A stretch of DNA of 64,000 bases, from the NCBI RefSeq assembly GCF_020150815.1, contig NZ_CP083723.1, positions 2,852,001 through 2,916,000 on the forward strand, given 5' to 3'. The notes under the pieces were generated by a model, which was not told where the DNA came from, made no database searches, and saw nothing but the letters and a program-made list of their open reading frames with translations. A program made the translations under genes and the position numbers. Positions 3,337-45,044 of the stretch are shown in pieces. The number at the start of each line of letters is the position of its first letter. The stretch's first letter is position 1. Origin of the DNA: Haloprofundus salilacus (GTDB lineage Archaea; Halobacteriota; Halobacteria; Halobacteriales; Haloferacaceae).

Positions 3337-3516
3337 GCGTGCGAGTCTCTAGCGCAGAAAGGAGCGTATTAGATTTTCCTGATAGAAAACCCCGTAAATT
3401 GAATCGCGTAGTCGAGTAGGATCTCTAAATACAGGGCCTTCGCGAGGAAATCGCCCGCAGACGGTCGCGACGAGTCTCGGCCGCTCTTGCGAAGTCCGCG
3501 ATGTCGCCGATAGCTG

Positions 3517-5064
3517 TCACTGCCGCCAAAACGCCGGTGTAAGAATGACCAGTACCGAGAGTACCTCCAAGCGACCGATCCACATCAGAAAGACCATGTA
3601 GAGTTTTGCGGCGTCTGAGAACGGCAGGAAGCTGTTCATCGGGCCAACAACGCCGAAGCCCGGGCCGATGTTCCCCAGCGTGGCGATAGCGACACTCATC
3701 GCCTCAAGCCCTGACAGCGACACGCCGGGTGTTCGCAAACTATCGAGATACAGGAACACCGTCGAGAGGGCAAATAGCGTCAAAAAGAGCACGATGAACA
3801 CGAGCACATCTCGGATTGTTTCCTCGTCGACGACTTCCTGCTTGAGTCGTACCGGTTTGATGGCCTCAGGATGGACAGACGTGAACAGTGTCCGGAGGAC
3901 GGCTTTCTTGACGAGAACCCACCGGACAATCTTGATCGAACCGGCAGCCGATCCCGCGGATCCGCCTAAGAAATACGCAAACAACAGTATCGTCTGCGCG
4001 GAGGGATCCCAGGTATTGAAATCCATACTCGCGTATCCGGTCGTCGTCACGATGGCGATCACCTGAAAGAGTCCCTGTCGGAGCGAATTTTCGAGATTTC
4101 CTGGGATGACGTCGAGGTTCGCTGGAGATTCGGCGAGTCCGACGCCGAGGAAGAGCACTGCCGCGATAGTTGCCCCGAAGCCGAAGATTGCGAGCAGGTA
4201 CGCACGGAACTCTGTGTTGTCGGTTAATCGACGAGGCTCTCCTCGAAGGACGTACCAGAACAGAGCAAAGTTCGTCCCCGCGACGACCATGAACGGCATC
4301 ACTGCCCACTGGACAGCCGGCGTAAACGCCTCCACGCTACGTGCCTCGGGAGAGAATCCGCCGGTGGGCATTGTCGTGAGCGCATGCGCAACCGCGTTGT
4401 AGAGATTCATGTTCGGCGCCAAACCGCTCAGGTGCAGTCCGTAATAGACCATGGCCGCGAGAGCGGTGAATCCAACGTAGATGCCCCACAGCCCACGCGC
4501 GGTCTGCTGGATTCGCGGCGTCAACTTTTTTAGCGAGATTCCTGGCGCTTCCTGGTTCATGATCTGAGCGCCCCCGACCGATAGCTCCGGCAGGATGGCG
4601 ACCATCAACACGAGAATGCCCATTCCGCCGAGCCACTGGGTGAGCTGGCGCCACATCAGCATCGCGTAGCCATGGCGCTCGACCGAGATCTCACCGAGAA
4701 CAGTAGCACCGGTCGTCGTGAATCCGCTCATGCTTTCGAACAGGGCGTTGACGGGGTTCGCAATAGTGCCCGTTCCAGCGACGAGATACGGCACTATCCC
4801 CGCCAGGGGCACGACCAACCACACGAGACTTACCAAGAGGAACGCCTCCCGGTTTTGAAGCTCGCCATCGTCGCGGACTCGCTCCAGCAAGAAACCGCCG
4901 CCAACCATGAGAATGCTAGTCGCGAGGAACGGAATCGGATCTTCACCGTAGAAGAGCGCCAGAACGAGCGGAAACAGCGGCGTAATGCCGATGTATTTGA
5001 GAACGGTCCCGACGAGGGCCACGCTTACCCTGTAATCAACATACACGCTCGGTGTGCGGGCCAT
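3517..5064 (-). CDS. trkH: TrkH-family potassium uptake membrane protein
   Basis: A 515-residue integral membrane protein with about ten hydrophobic segments arranged as repeated membrane-pore-membrane units. Pore-loop motifs SGFTTTGAT, TMPTGGFS, TTTGYAS and GNIGPGFG are the four K+-selectivity filter regions of the Trk/Ktr/HKT family. It imports K+, the main compatible solute of salt-in haloarchaea. No trkA regulator lies next to it. The ATG at 5064 is used; the codon before it is TTG. Codon choice looks less GC-biased than in neighbouring genes, which may mean separate acquisition. Confidence 0.9.
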   Translation of the reverse strand: MARTPSVYVDYRVSVALVGTVLKYIGITPLFPLVLALFYGEDPIPFLATSILMVGGGFLLERVRDDGELQNREAFLLVSLVWLVVPLAGIVPYLVAGTGTIANPVNALFESMSGFTTTGATVLGEISVERHGYAMLMWRQLTQWLGGMGILVLMVAILPELSVGGAQIMNQEAPGISLKKLTPRIQQTARGLWGIYVGFTALAAMVYYGLHLSGLAPNMNLYNAVAHALTTMPTGGFSPEARSVEAFTPAVQWAVMPFMVVAGTNFALFWYVLRGEPRRLTDNTEFRAYLLAIFGFGATIAAVLFLGVGLAESPANLDVIPGNLENSLRQGLFQVIAIVTTTGYASMDFNTWDPSAQTILLFAYFLGGSAGSAAGSIKIVRWVLVKKAVLRTLFTSVHPEAIKPVRLKQEVVDEETIRDVLVFIVLFLTLFALSTVFLYLDSLRTPGVSLSGLEAMSVAIATLGNIGPGFGVVGPMNSFLPFSDAAKLYMVFLMWIGRLEVLSVLVILTPAFWRQ

Positions 5065-5226
5065 CAAACAGCTAGAGTGATTGAGCGATGAACGGATGGA
5101 CGTTTCGGTTCGGCGAGTTCTCCGGAGGGACTATTCATTGGCTCACTCGAAAAGAGGATACTGGATACACCTGCAGAAAAGACGCATATCAGGAATCAGC
5201 TCCAAAAGTAGCTAACGCAACAGAGG

Positions 5227-5289
5227 TCACAAGAAGTCCGCGATGCCACTCTGTGTGTTCATGTCGTCCTGCGACCACCTTTTTACTCC
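5227..5289 (-). pseudogene. Duplicated fragment of the polC 3' end (PIP-box remnant)
   Basis: On the minus strand, positions 5265-5230 match the end of polC (5387-5352) at 32 of 36 bases. In frame this reads QDDMNTQSGIADFL and then a TGA stop, against ENDKNKQSGIADFM in the real gene, so the PCNA-interacting QxxIxxF tail is preserved. An in-frame TGA lies about nine codons upstream of the matching ATG (5262). It is either a decayed partial duplication or an 11-residue open frame, MNTQSGIADFL. No clear ribosome-binding site or TATA box precedes the ATG. Confidence 0.6.
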
Positions 5290-5340: not shown

Positions 5341-5348
5341 TCTGTCAG

Positions 5349-8300
5349 TTACATGAAGTCCGCGATGCCGCTCTGTTTGTTCTTGTCGTTCTCGAAGACG
5401 CTCTCCAGACTCTTCTTGAGCACTTCGAGGCGCTGTTTCGTGTAATCGCGACAGCCGAACTCCTCGGCCACCTCGATGGCGGTTTCCATGTACTTGTTCA
5501 CCGACCCCTGGTGCACCGTCAGGTTGACGCGCCCGCCGCACTCACGACAGTCGCCGGTCAGCGGCATTCTCCGATACTTTTCGCCGCAGTCGAGACACCG
5601 CGTCGTCTGCCGCGAGAACGCGCGGAGATTGCCGATGAGGTCCGGCAGGAAGTGGTACTCGATGACTCGCTCGGCGACGTCCGTCTCGTCGACGGCGCGA
5701 AGTTTCCGCGCGAGATGGAGTTGGGCGTCCATCTTCTCGGTCATCGACCCGAGCGTCTTGTACGCCGACAACGACGGGCCGAGGTGGATGTTCGAGGTGT
5801 CGTGGGTGTGGTGGAACTCCGAGTACTCGAGATCGGTGCCCAGATTGTCCTCGGCGATCTGGATGAGCTCCTCTACCTCGCCGGGGTCGGCCATCTCGCG
5901 GGTCGCCTCGTAGAACTCCCGCGGGTACTGCCGCACGATGTCCATATTGTGCGCCTCGTCGTCGATCTCGGAGGGGTCGATGCGCGAGGACATGACCAAC
6001 GGTGCGTCCATACGCCCGCCCCGCTTGTTGGGGAGGAACTCCTTCGAGAAGTTCAAGAGACCATCCATGAGCAGCATGACGCAGTCTTCGTCGCCGTCGC
6101 ATTGGCCGACGTAGAGGTCGTTAGCGACGAGTGTGTGCGTCTCCTCGACGGTGAGGCAGTAGGTGTGTTCCACGTTGCTCTTCACATACTCAACTGAAAC
6201 GACTTCGTCAAGAAGTACGTCGCCGCCGTCGCCAAAGAGTCGTTGTGAACGGAGTTCAGTCGCCGCCAGCGCGGTTTCTATCGTGGCCTGCTTTCGTTCG
6301 AGATGGAATCCAATTTCTTCGGCGAAGCGAGCAGCGTTTTCCGAGGTTATCTTGAGAACTGTTGCTTCGGACATCGGTGACTCGTCGTAGAAGTCAGCAA
6401 CGACACCCGAGGTGATGGTACGTACCTCAGAGTATGTTTTCGTCGCGATTCCGAACCGCTTGAGGAGACCGATGATGTCCTGCGAAAGCTCGTCACTGAC
6501 TGTGTGGGCGCGAATCTCGATGCGGTCACTCGACGCGCTTCCATCCCCGCTGAAGTATGCGGAGAGGAACGCGGCAACTACCGAGTGAGTCGACGAAGTG
6601 ACGCAGTTGGGAACGCGCTTCGATTCAGCTCGGGTTCCTACGTCGAGGATGTCGGAAAACAGCGTTGCGACGAGGCGGCTCGATGCCGTCACTTTCCACT
6701 TGTTCTCCTCGTAAGCCTCGACACCGAGCGCGTTCGCGAAAGCGTCTATGACTGCCGTGCGTGCCTCCGCGTCTGGGATGCAGATAGTCGTCTGATAGAA
6801 CTGGTTAGCTTCGCGACGGGTGAACCCCTCAGCCGCGTAATATCCGAGGAGAGTACCGACGTTTTCATCGACTGCCAACTGGCGGGAGACGGTTGTTGTG
6901 TCGCGGCGGATACCGAGCTTGACGTCGGTGGGAACGCGGTCAACGACGCTTTCTTCGCCGACCAGTTCAATAAGGACGCTGACGGGAATACTGTCTCTAT
7001 TAACCCAGTTGTAGACTGTCAATTGGCTAACCCCGAGCGTCTCGGCGGTAGCCTTACAGTAGCCTTTGCCCGACGTTGCGTCGTCTAACAATGCTTTGAG
7101 CCGCTCAGCGCCGAGACCTCGAATCACGAGGTCTTCGTTCGGTATCGACTCAACGGTGAGGAACTCCTCTAAGAGGTCGAAGCCGATCCGTTCTCCGTCA
7201 AAGGAGACAACCTCTGGCGCGGGAAGTTCGTCGCCAACTTGGAGAGATTGAGCCTCTACTGGTTCGAGTCCTCCGTTCCATCGGCGGAGTTTGTGGTCTA
7301 CCGTTACAGTGAGCGTGCGCCCGCTCCGAGTTTCCACCTGAACCAAGTGGTCTGGTGCCTGATGTTTCGAAACCGATTCGACACGACTCAGGCACGGACT
7401 GTCGCCGGGGCCGACAGCGGGCACAAGAACGTCTCCATCCAGTTCCTGGACTAGCGTCCCGAAATCGTCCGTCTCGGGGTCGTCGAGTCGCGCTTCGACA
7501 AGCGATTCGATATCATCGTAGTGCCATTCACCCGCTTCGTCTTCGAACCAGACCTTCGTATCCGGGTGGAAGCAATTCCTTCGCTTCGCCGCGTGGAAGT
7601 ACGGATGCGCGTACCCCACCGCGGCGCTCGTGAATCCGACGACCCGCCCGACGACCGCAGCGCTCGTGTGCGGGGCCATCCCGAACACCAGTTCGCCGAC
7701 GAGGTCGTCGCGCTCGTTCACTTCGTAGAAGGCGGGGAGACCGTAGTAGCTCTCCAGGAGGTCGTCGACGAAGTTCGCCGTCTTCAGCATGTGCTCGGCC
7801 GCGCCGTCCGAGAGGACGATGTCCTGGACTCTGAGTTCGAGCAGTTGGTCGTCGTGGCGGAGCGGTTCGCCGTCGATGTCGCGTTCGTAGCCGAGTTCGC
7901 GGAAGTGTTCGGCCGTCACGTCGAGTTCCTCGGGGCGAACCGCGGTGACGGGAAGATCCGTCATGTCGTAGCGGACCGTGCCGTCTTTAAACGCGGTGAC
8001 GCCGTGTTTCGCGCGGAGAACGCCTTTCTCCATCGCCTCGGGCGTCTTGTGCGCCGACGTGAGTCCCTTCACGCCCTTCAGAATCTTGTACGAGGCTTTC
8101 CGCTCGCCGACGGCGTCGAGCGCATCGGAGAGTTCGCGGCCGATATCGACGTCGTGCCAGTCGGGGCTCTCGACCTCGCGTTCGCAGCGCGGACACTCGA
8201 CCCGGCCCGCCTCGTCGGGTTCGACCTCGATTTCGCAGTCGGTGCACTCGTAGTACGGTTCGGTGTGGCCGCCGCACGACGGGCAACTGGGTTTGTACGT

Positions 8301-10370
8301 GTGCTCGCCGCAGGCGGCGCACTCGCGGCGACCGACGCGGACGCCGACGATACCGCGGCGACCCCGGTCGTCCATCTTCCGGGCCGCTTCGCCCACGTTG
8401 CGCTGACTTCCCCCGGCCTCGCCGATGGGAAACAGCGTGTGGACCGCAGGCGAGAGGTCGCGGCTCTCGGACTTCTCGGGCCGGCCCATCCGGTTGCCGA
8501 TTCGGGTCGGCGCGCGCTCCTGAACCGCGAAAGGGGCAACTTCGTTGGCGGCTTTCACGGCGTTGTCGCCGCCGGCCCAGTTTCGGGCGTCAGCCGAGAG
8601 GTCCTCGGCGTTCCACGTCTTCCGGAGACCGTCGTCGAGGCCGAGCGTCCGCGCGAGCGGTCGCCACTCCGGAATCCGGAGGGCGTCCTCGGTCTGGGAG
8701 TGTTCGACGAGCAGGTGTTCGAGCGCCCGCCTCGTCGTCTCGGTGCGTTCGATAGCGAGAACGCCGTCGGTGAGTTCGCCGTCGGAAACGGCGTCGGCGA
8801 GCGCTTCGAACTCCGAAACGGAGATGTCGTGCCACAGGTAGGTGAACTTCGGATGCAGCGGCGCGTCGTACTCGGTGGCCCACTCCAACGCCTGCTCGAC
8901 GGTCGGCGATTCGAGGTCGACGCGCGGCGAATCACGGAGCGCCTGTACGTCCGCGCCTGCCGCTTCGAGGTCCTGTACCCACCACTCGGGTGTGTAGGAG
9001 GCGGGCGCGAGCGGGTGGTTGTTCTCGATGAACTCGCCGTAGTTGACGAGGTACTCGCCGAGGTCGAGAATCTTCTCGACGCCGTTTCTGAGTTCGAGCG
9101 CCTCCTCCGGGTCGTCGATGCGCCGCACGTCGCCGTTTGCGAGGCGGACCGTCGGTCCCTCGATGGAGTCGACGGGGACCACGCCGCCCGCCTTCCCGGG
9201 GCGTTCGGTCTTAATCTGGGTGCCGGTCGCGATGAAGTCGTCGACGACGTGCATTGTCGCCGGGTGGACGCCCGCCGTCGCGAAGCCGTGGTTTCGCGCG
9301 CGGCCGTATCTCAGCCGAAAGCCGCCCTCTTCGGACGGGTGGCCGAACACCGGACGGCCCGCGATGAGGTCGCGCAAGAACTTGGTCGCGGGTTCGACGC
9401 GTGGGGGACCGTCGGGGTCGGTCGAGTCGGCGTCTTCGATCGCTTCGGCGTCGGCCGATTCGGCGTCTGCCTCCGCCGCGTTCGCGCCGTCGTCGTCGAC
9501 CCCGCTCTCGTCAGTTTTCCCGTCGTCTTCGCCGATAGTGCCGTCGATGAGGTCCTGCAGCCACGGCCAGTCGACCTCGTCGAGTTGGCGGGTGTAGCGC
9601 TGAATCTTCGGCGCTTTGAGCGCGATACCCTCGGCCATGACGAGACACATCCCGCCGCGGGCGGAGTTGGTGTCGACGCGGTCGAGGTCCCGGTAGCCCG
9701 ACACCTCCTCGTCGCCCGTCGCCTCGCCGTCGAGCATGATCGGCATGTTCCGCGAGATGAAACGCGTCTCCTTGTCCTTCGGCGAGTACTGCAGTCCCGT
9801 CTCCTTGTCGTACAGCGCGACCTCCTCGACGTAGCGTTCGACCTCGTCGTCGCGGGCTTTGTACTCGTCGACGCCGATGAGCGTCCGGGTGTAGTCTGCG
9901 ACCAGCACGGAGAGCGCCTGCGCCGTCCCGCCCGCGGAGCGAATCGGTCCGGCGTAGTAGACGTTGACGAACTCGGTGCCGTCGTCGTTCGGGAGGATTT
10001 CGACGCGGTCGATACCCTCGATGGGGGCGGCGACGACACCCTCGGTTAGGAGGGCGACCGCGGTGCGGACCGCGCCCTCGACTTTGCCCGCGCGGGTGTC
10101 GTAGTCGCCGACGCGACCCTCCGCGAAGTCCTCGGCCAGCGCGAGCGCCGCTTCCTCGCGGGACATCTGCTCTTCCAGTTCGCGGACGCGCTCGGCGACG
10201 CCGTCGATTTCGAGGATGTTCTCGACGCGGTCGGCCATGTCCTTGGCGACCGGAATCTCGACCTCCGTCCCGGGGTCCATACCCTGCTCGCGGGCGGCGT
10301 CGGCGAGTTCGAACGCCTCGTCGAGTCGGTTCTCGATGCGCGCGAAGTAGCGCTCGTCGTCCGGTCTCAC
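5349..10370 (-). CDS. polC: DNA polymerase II (PolD) large subunit DP2, with in-frame intein
   Basis: The catalytic subunit of the archaeal replicative family D polymerase; 1673 residues encoded, about 1182 after intein removal, normal for the family. A zinc-binding domain with several CxxC pairs lies near residues 675-735 and another near 1590-1612. The catalytic NCDGDED motif is split: Asn932 precedes the intein and CDGDED follows it (residues 1424-1429). The C-terminus QSGIADFM fits a PCNA-interacting PIP box. A Glu/Asp/Ala-rich variable insert lies near residues 280-320. The start is GTG at 10370, one base after the stop of the PPC-domain gene, so the two are probably co-transcribed. The small subunit DP1 is not in the window. 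Confidence 0.95.
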   Translation of the reverse strand: MRPDDERYFARIENRLDEAFELADAAREQGMDPGTEVEIPVAKDMADRVENILEIDGVAERVRELEEQMSREEAALALAEDFAEGRVGDYDTRAGKVEGAVRTAVALLTEGVVAAPIEGIDRVEILPNDDGTEFVNVYYAGPIRSAGGTAQALSVLVADYTRTLIGVDEYKARDDEVERYVEEVALYDKETGLQYSPKDKETRFISRNMPIMLDGEATGDEEVSGYRDLDRVDTNSARGGMCLVMAEGIALKAPKIQRYTRQLDEVDWPWLQDLIDGTIGEDDGKTDESGVDDDGANAAEADAESADAEAIEDADSTDPDGPPRVEPATKFLRDLIAGRPVFGHPSEEGGFRLRYGRARNHGFATAGVHPATMHVVDDFIATGTQIKTERPGKAGGVVPVDSIEGPTVRLANGDVRRIDDPEEALELRNGVEKILDLGEYLVNYGEFIENNHPLAPASYTPEWWVQDLEAAGADVQALRDSPRVDLESPTVEQALEWATEYDAPLHPKFTYLWHDISVSEFEALADAVSDGELTDGVLAIERTETTRRALEHLLVEHSQTEDALRIPEWRPLARTLGLDDGLRKTWNAEDLSADARNWAGGDNAVKAANEVAPFAVQERAPTRIGNRMGRPEKSESRDLSPAVHTLFPIGEAGGSQRNVGEAARKMDDRGRRGIVGVRVGRRECAACGEHTYKPSCPSCGGHTEPYYECTDCEIEVEPDEAGRVECPRCEREVESPDWHDVDIGRELSDALDAVGERKASYKILKGVKGLTSAHKTPEAMEKGVLRAKHGVTAFKDGTVRYDMTDLPVTAVRPEELDVTAEHFRELGYERDIDGEPLRHDDQLLELRVQDIVLSDGAAEHMLKTANFVDDLLESYYGLPAFYEVNERDDLVGELVFGMAPHTSAAVVGRVVGFTSAAVGYAHPYFHAAKRRNCFHPDTKVWFEDEAGEWHYDDIESLVEARLDDPETDDFGTLVQELDGDVLVPAVGPGDSPCLSRVESVSKHQAPDHLVQVETRSGRTLTVTVDHKLRRWNGGLEPVEAQSLQVGDELPAPEVVSFDGERIGFDLLEEFLTVESIPNEDLVIRGLGAERLKALLDDATSGKGYCKATAETLGVSQLTVYNWVNRDSIPVSVLIELVGEESVVDRVPTDVKLGIRRDTTTVSRQLAVDENVGTLLGYYAAEGFTRREANQFYQTTICIPDAEARTAVIDAFANALGVEAYEENKWKVTASSRLVATLFSDILDVGTRAESKRVPNCVTSSTHSVVAAFLSAYFSGDGSASSDRIEIRAHTVSDELSQDIIGLLKRFGIATKTYSEVRTITSGVVADFYDESPMSEATVLKITSENAARFAEEIGFHLERKQATIETALAATELRSQRLFGDGGDVLLDEVVSVEYVKSNVEHTYCLTVEETHTLVANDLYVGQCDGDEDCVMLLMDGLLNFSKEFLPNKRGGRMDAPLVMSSRIDPSEIDDEAHNMDIVRQYPREFYEATREMADPGEVEELIQIAEDNLGTDLEYSEFHHTHDTSNIHLGPSLSAYKTLGSMTEKMDAQLHLARKLRAVDETDVAERVIEYHFLPDLIGNLRAFSRQTTRCLDCGEKYRRMPLTGDCRECGGRVNLTVHQGSVNKYMETAIEVAEEFGCRDYTKQRLEVLKKSLESVFENDKNKQSGIADFM
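6102..7574 (-). mobile_element. PolD DP2 intein with LAGLIDADG homing endonuclease (491 aa)
   Basis: Residues 933-1423 of the polC product form an intein. It starts with Cys1 (CFHPDTKVWF), has a block-B TVTVDHK region, a block-F stretch ending VEETHTLVANDLYVG, and ends in Gln followed by Cys+1 of the host. The usual last residue is Asn; a C-terminal Gln is known from Pyrococcus PolII inteins that splice. Two dodecapeptide-type motifs, LLGYYAAEGF and FLSAYFSGDG, mark an apparently complete DOD homing endonuclease, with a possible HTH segment (TVYNWVNRDSIP) between. The reading frame is intact and base use is visibly more AT-rich than in the flanking exteins. Confidence 0.93.
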
Positions 10371-44670: not shown

Positions 44671-44813
44671 CCTAATATATCTGGTACCGATACTTAGTGG
44701 ACGAAGCGCCAACTACAGTACGCGAACACGGACGCACCGGACCCGAACACAGTTCGCGTGCCAACGAACTTAGCCAAGCCATGCACTCCGGACGCGCCGT
44801 GTTTAGCGAGGAG
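44671..44813 (+). repeat. Tandem element copy 2 (putative small-RNA gene)
   Basis: Box A CCTAATATAT at 44671-44680 is the best TATA box of the three; CTTAGTGG at 44693-44700; core 44746-44785 with stem 44751-44756 / 44765-44770. Spacing from box A to the TTAGTGG box is 22 nt, as in the other copies. A minus-strand 68-codon frame with TTG start (44900-44694) covers this copy and reads HGLAKFVGTRTVFGSG through the core; it is the main alternative explanation. Confidence 0.6.
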
Positions 44814-44902
44814 TACCCCTCGTTCTTCCCAATCTCCGAAACCTGACGCGAGGAGCGACGCGTCTCGGTCGCGACGATCGGGCCATCGTTCGAAACCCAA
44901 TG

Positions 44903-45044
44903 CCTAACATATTAGGTGATGTCGTTTAGTGGGTGGGGTTGTAAGTAGTAACTGCGAACCGCGGAACACCGGACCCAAACACAGTTCGCGTGCCAACGAA
45001 CTTAGCCAAGCCATGCAGTCCCGGTGCGCCGCGTTCGACGAGGC
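44903..45044 (+). repeat. Tandem element copy 3 (putative small-RNA gene)
   Basis: Box A CCTAACATATTAGG (44903-44916, itself an inverted repeat) follows CGAAACC; TTTAGTGG at 44925-44932; core 44978-45017 with stem 44983-44988 / 44997-45002; GCGTTCGACGAGGC at 45031-45044 as in copy 1. The distances between boxes are the same as in copies 1 and 2 to within one base. Confidence 0.6.

Follow-up and report, generated by a model that had tools for sequence, protein, structure and literature searches.

Integration of mobile elements at the 3' ends of archaeal protein-coding genes, with replacement of the stop codon, is already described (PMC6563490, PMC8371274). From another side, the C-terminal PIP peptide (cPIP) of the P. 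abyssi polymerase PolD lacks the consensus Gln, yet it has been crystallised bound to PCNA (PMC7101311). The locus considered here, in Haloprofundus salilacus, lies at the 3' end of polC, the gene for the large subunit of PolD. The window is the whole stretch of 64,000 nucleotides analysed (contig NZ_CP083723.1, positions 2,852,001 to 2,916,000).

A second polC tail in the window

The main features of the locus are as follows.

5349..10370, minus strand: polC (PolD large subunit DP2, 1673 aa), assigned by relatives' identity, with the C-terminal end FENDKNKQSGIADFM before the stop
5348..5392, minus strand: tail copy 1, the current 3' end of polC, which includes CGACAAGAACAA
5275..5337, minus strand: terminator-like element between the two copies, TTTTTGGTCCAGATTTTT-hairpin-AAAAAGGTGG, assigned by folding and by recurrence in the genome
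5226..5270, minus strand: tail copy 2, identical to copy 1 at 39 of 45 nt
3517..5067, minus strand: trkH (PF02386), an inserted gene; homology to the trkH loci of relatives spans at most ~3510-5145

The stray second polC tail is confirmed. The C-terminal 243 aa encoded by polC are 95-97% identical to those of four relatives and end in NKQSGIADFM, with the stop at 5349 on the minus strand. Judged from the ORF translation, an intein is apparently present in the gene (5349-10370). Copies 1 and 2 form a direct repeat of 45 nt with a spacing of 122 nt; the initial annotation, which gave 36 nt with four mismatches and a distance of about 120 nt, was right in kind, and the match extends slightly beyond both of its ends. 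Copy 2 is the sole good second match to the last 38 nt of polC in the 64-kb window (33/38), the next-best matches reaching 22/38 on the minus and 23/38 on the plus strand. Across the whole genome, the pattern Q-x-G-I-A-D-F occurs exactly at copies 1 and 2, and the reversed control gives none. Within copy 1, CGACAAGAACAA is the core at which the displaced tails of other genomes start; upstream of this core, copy 2 carries the polC-like sequence AGGACGAC.

The DNA between the copies had been called terminator-like, and its good folding agrees with this (z -4.0; 1 of 200 shuffles equally good). The left half of the hairpin occurs at 10 sites in the genome, that of the window included, with at most 3 mismatches (control 0), and a similar right half is found at several of the nine other sites, while the full exact motif occurs once. 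At none of these nine sites is a 12-mer repeated across the hairpin. A mobile hairpin was for this reason rejected as the repeat source, and the hairpin looks like a common terminator-like element that does not by itself give rise to the repeat. Rfam has no match in the window at the gathering threshold; this includes a set of noncoding repeats of another kind at about 44720-45040, which are ~60-70 nt long, share the core AACACAGTTCGCGTGCCAACGAACTTAGCCAAGCCATGCA and are spaced ~232-254 nt apart.

Homology to the relatives G001 and G002 is lost from the polC stop onwards and picks up again near 3381-3403, with the hairpin, copy 2 and trkH between these points. No trkH is present beside polC in G001-G003. 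G001 has two orthologues with 90-92% protein identity at other loci; such orthologues are also present elsewhere in G002 and G004, and the best match in G003 is 59%. At this site trkH is an insertion. The condition by which the initial annotation would have been refuted, namely relatives without the second copy and an ancestral trkH, has a mixed outcome: G001-G003 lack both the copy and trkH, G004 has the copy with other DNA beyond it, and trkH does not look ancestral at polC.

The polC 3' end as an attachment site

An insertion at polC together with a displaced second tail was found in ten genomes.

G036: polC ends in NRPSSLAEFM; native-type tail 6.6 kb downstream, adjoining a Phage_integrase gene (PF00589)
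G020: polC ends in NRPSTIADFM; native tail 8.2 kb downstream, beside an integrase
G385: interval of 16.2 kb; polC tail NKPTTIGDFM
G279: interval of 13.2 kb; polC tail NKPTSLGDFM
G193: interval of 4.2 kb; polC tail NRPTTLGDYM; integrase match partial
G137: Pro-type polC tail and displaced Gln-type tail; the ends are on two contigs
G102: Pro-type polC tail and displaced Gln-type tail
G103: Pro-type polC tail; displaced tail decayed
G106: polC keeps KQSGIADFM; displaced tail truncated; integrase fragment
G254: polC keeps KQSGIADFM; interval of 0.8 kb; integrase not found

The inserted stretch of G036 also encodes a D5/Prim-Pol-type protein. In three sampled congeners of G020, polC ends in NKQGSIADFM, which is the native tail displaced in G020. 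In eight of the ten carriers (L065, L067, L068, L131, L136, L171-L173), the Gln of the PIP-box has become Pro in the tail now in use. Identity of the displaced tails starts at CGAC. The two bases before it are TT in 9/10 and CT in G102; a further arm, judged by eye, is common to G020, G385 and G279 and, less clearly, to G193. Of 391 genomes, seven contain a match to a TTCGAC-type tail pattern, against 0 for the reversed pattern; six of the matches are displaced tails, and the seventh, in G010, falls in an unrelated ORF. G036, G020, G385, G279, G193 and G137 each combine an integrase with a displaced tail and a changed polC tail.

The integrase of G020 is 70% identical to that of G036, and those of G385, G279 and G193 (partial in the last) show 61-64% identity. 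Six polC-adjacent integrases form one clade with a support of 100/100 in a tree of 28 rows. This tree covers 23 of the 34 integrase places found and five others; it leaves out fragments, a sequence interrupted by stops, some of the second copies, those places for which there was no locus, and the truncated integrase that adjoins polC in G106. Attachment sites were checked for some of the 22 other rows. By comparison, the last ~40 nt of haloarchaeal polC are shown to be an attachment site for this clade of tyrosine-recombinase elements.

The genome of the window has no relative of the polC-clade integrase at 1e-40. Viral contigs gave 0 matches to an attP with the Pro-tail pattern. Integrase relatives were found in one plasmid record (31%) and in two phage records, both of Halorubrum tailed virus 27 (44%); a 9-kb stretch of this virus holds no polC-like tail. 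A relative in Halorussus marinus (45%) likewise has no polC-like tail in its 21-kb integrase locus.

Some further tails were observed. Four sampled genomes of genus g18 have the Pro tail NKPSRLDDFM, and G096 has NRPTSLGDFM, with no displaced tail found in either case; these are perhaps fixed relics. In G137, an additional decayed tail (GGCATCGCGGACTTCACGTGA, at about 6247 of L069) lies ~1.5 kb beyond the displaced one, suggesting repeated integration. In the Haloferax genome G028 (L066), there is ~5.7 kb more DNA between polC and the common downstream genes than in G027, and no displaced tail was found in it.

Short tail repeats and the origin of copy 2

Short repeats like that of the window are found in other genomes. 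The exact pattern QxxGIADF has a match in 119 of 170 genomes of the family, and in 13 of the 170 two or three matches lie close together; those examined up close all adjoin polC. The 13 genomes belong to the genus of the window (G000, G004), to genus g11 and to genus g9, which is Haloferax (the G036 integrase is a 100% match to Haloferax massiliensis). A looser search added G039. Among 15 Haloferax genomes, ten have an array, four have none (G028, G033, G034, G037) and G036 has the large element instead. A stricter pattern matched 210 of 391 genomes across the class and gave new doubles in G254, G309 and G349, which are of other families, so that the short polC tail repeats (G309, G349) occur in two families beyond that of the window.

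A scan for repeats with a spacing of 70-400 nt and an exact 13-mer seed covered 51 regions, or 830 kb centred on polC. In 16 genomes it picked out the polC end; all further matches lie in long ORFs, apart from one noncoding set of another kind; no tail repeat was recognised at any gene other than polC. General slippage at terminators was not seen elsewhere in this sample, which is weighted towards polC and was scanned with the exact 13-mer seed.

The layout of polC tail, hairpin and tail seen in the window is also that of the short repeats in Haloferax, g11, G309 and G349. In several lineages the left ends of the second tails fall within ~12 nt around the integrase core, and in several the hairpin directly abuts the copy. 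The other short repeats also lack TTCGAC. Haloferax copies match the tail of their own genome at 28.6/30 and the tails of other genomes at 26.9/30 (0/20000 permutations on 13 copies from 10 genomes, ignoring species relatedness); as in a homogenised array, they are more alike within than between genomes. No integrase relative was present in the downstream DNA examined of the array genomes, which carries no weight for or against a decoy role because element carriers are so few.

On the far side of trkH, two more features bear on the history of the locus.

3491..3503, minus strand: candidate third tail trace CATCGCGGACTTC, decayed; its 13 nt correspond to part of the polC end
3363..3380, minus strand: AGGAAAATCTAATACGCT, start of the DNA common to G001 and G002 downstream of polC

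The third trace, missed by the earlier reading, starts 13 nt after the trkH stop, and the trkH block ends at most 10 nt from it. It consists of a 13-mer only, and equal-size control comparisons (6-kb stretches) reach 7-12. In ~870 kb of strand sequence, every occurrence of its 12-mer core is in a polC tail or in a tail that is displaced or decayed. If the trace is read as a polC end, the implied stop lies 104 nt before AGGAAAATCTAATACGCT; G001 has the same distance for its true polC stop (104 nt), and G002 has 99 nt. Taken as a polC end, the 13-mer is an original gene end displaced at the ancestral spacing. Beyond the trace, the spacer has a weak alignment to G001 (5 of 300 shuffles equally good) and none to G002, nor do G001 and G002 align with each other there. 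As att repeats flanking the insert, copies 1 and 2 are clear, while the outer repeat is the decayed 13-mer. The TTCGAC arm next to the core of displaced tails is absent at copy 2 and at the third trace, which has GGCGAC instead. No other genome tested (24 with the window, G004 included) has such a trace beyond its array. The third trace is probably the displaced original 3' end of polC. What supports a displacement of the window's polC end in the same sense as in the carriers is this decayed tail, 1.86 kb further downstream and exactly at the ancestral spacing. The present tail, together with the hairpin, copy 2 and trkH, would then have arrived in the insertion or later.

The explanation that we prefer, with moderate confidence, takes copy 2 for a duplicated segment of the attachment site, at a hotspot of integration; the locus as a whole is probably the remnant of an insertion at polC. 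An element would insert at the polC 3' end near CGACAAGAACAA, so that polC gains a new tail and the native-type tail moves downstream. Copy 2 and trkH might be what is left of one such insertion or of several, after loss of the integrase and most genes. The copies would have no coding role and could persist as relics or spare attachment sites, and recombination would keep them alike where they are arrayed, as in Haloferax. A by-product or decay of integrase action is favoured over duplication at the hairpin because the repeat is confined to polC in the sample and because of the displaced end in the window. The nine other such terminators of the genome, which have no repeat, also speak for the hotspot.

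Several findings stand against a hotspot origin: no polC-clade integrase relative in the genome of the window, no TTCGAC arm at copy 2 where 9/10 displaced tails have it, the narrow excess of the 13-mer over the control maximum of 12 with no such trace in other array genomes tested, the poor alignment of the spacer after the trace to G001 and G002, and the flush hairpin-copy junction of several lineages, which simple element decay does not predict. Because of the missing arm, the reading of copy 2 as a simple attR left by the known clade was rejected. The initial annotation had offered three explanations, and a scar of 3'-end-targeted integration is the best supported of them for the locus, by the attachment site and the trkH insertion, although the integrase and the TTCGAC arm are missing. 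A decayed partial duplication is less well supported for the locus and is still a serious rival for the origin of the 122-nt unit.

Such a duplication, which we consider possible but doubtful, would be a local tandem event on the polC tail and terminator (replication slippage or template switching at the hairpin) followed by gene conversion, with integrases uninvolved and trkH a separate matter. It accords with the Haloferax arrays, which are head-to-tail units of ~96-114 nt that include the terminator (two arrays contain N, which blurs the spacing), with the full terminator retained after the last copy in G031, with copies that run ~14-20 nt past the stop in G309 and G349, with the clean 118-nt unit that distinguishes G048 from G047, and with the closer likeness of Haloferax copies to their own tail. 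However, polC alone shows the repeat in 830 kb, though similar hairpins occur elsewhere in the genome; the left ends of the repeats cluster at the integrase core in several lineages, and duplication alone leaves the third trace and trkH unexplained.

TIP, a PCNA inhibitor of Thermococcales, is a small PCNA-binding protein, and a minimal peptide of this kind had been suggested for copy 2, where one frame could encode it.

5227..5262, minus strand: 11-codon frame MNTQSGIADFL with its stop, inside copy 2; the ATG is not conserved

The likeness to TIP lies in the idea of a small PCNA-binding protein, whereas copy 2 has no conserved ORF. Although the frame has an ATG, the motif and a stop in the genome of the window, this is the only leading ATG among 19 copies from 16 genomes; most Haloferax copies have an in-frame GTG, those of G004, G049 and G349 have no upstream start codon, a stop replaces the Gln in G039, and G001-G003 lack the copy. 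The likeness among Haloferax copies is put down to homogenisation. The micropeptide was rejected for want of a conserved start: that these 11 residues modulate the PolD-PCNA contact is highly improbable, a conserved PCNA-binding peptide is unlikely, and copy 2 is probably no tiny gene. Chance similarity or an assembly artefact is hardly credible for copy 2, since the match stands far above background, the same structure recurs in separate genomes and the two copies of the window differ in sequence; nothing in the window supports it, and copy number is uncertain in the G029 and G030 assemblies, with N inside the array.

Comparison with known systems

The attachment-site reading is a simple account of stray polC tails. 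It places an attachment site inside an essential replicative polymerase gene, where its use rewrites the PCNA-binding peptide; if true, a central contact of the haloarchaeal replisome has been altered time and again by mobile DNA. Whether the exchange of tails alters replication, or immunity to further elements, becomes testable. In the literature searched, largely open-access and in main texts only, polC is nowhere described as a site of integration.

The tails exchanged here are, like the archaeal PolD cPIP (PMC7101311), the terminal PIP peptide of DP2. The P. abyssi cPIP has no consensus Gln, while among the ten carriers Gln is present in most displaced tails and Pro in eight of the tails in use. 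Pro-type tails may bind PCNA too, since the P. abyssi peptide was crystallised in the bound state. It is tempting to go further and to suppose that polC elements systematically swap the PCNA-binding Gln for Pro, and that tandem spare tails, like those of the window, Haloferax and others, are selected decoy attachment sites, kept identical, which take up the elements and so protect the polymerase tail; we regard this as rather improbable.

The closest likeness is to archaeal tyrosine-recombinase elements such as NitEve-E2, in a Zn-finger gene, where the crossover is near the 3' end, the element supplies an ORF end with its own stop and one site can be reused in tandem (PMC6563490, PMC8371274). 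Unlike in those cases, the target is polC and the exchanged segment is a clamp-binding tail (neither polC nor PolD is named in the passages that describe them), and the window keeps no integrase. Casposons in ef-2, also tandem, are similar in using one essential gene repeatedly; they have terminal inverted repeats and target-site duplications (PMC6563490), whereas the polC elements have a Pfam Phage_integrase and a common att core.
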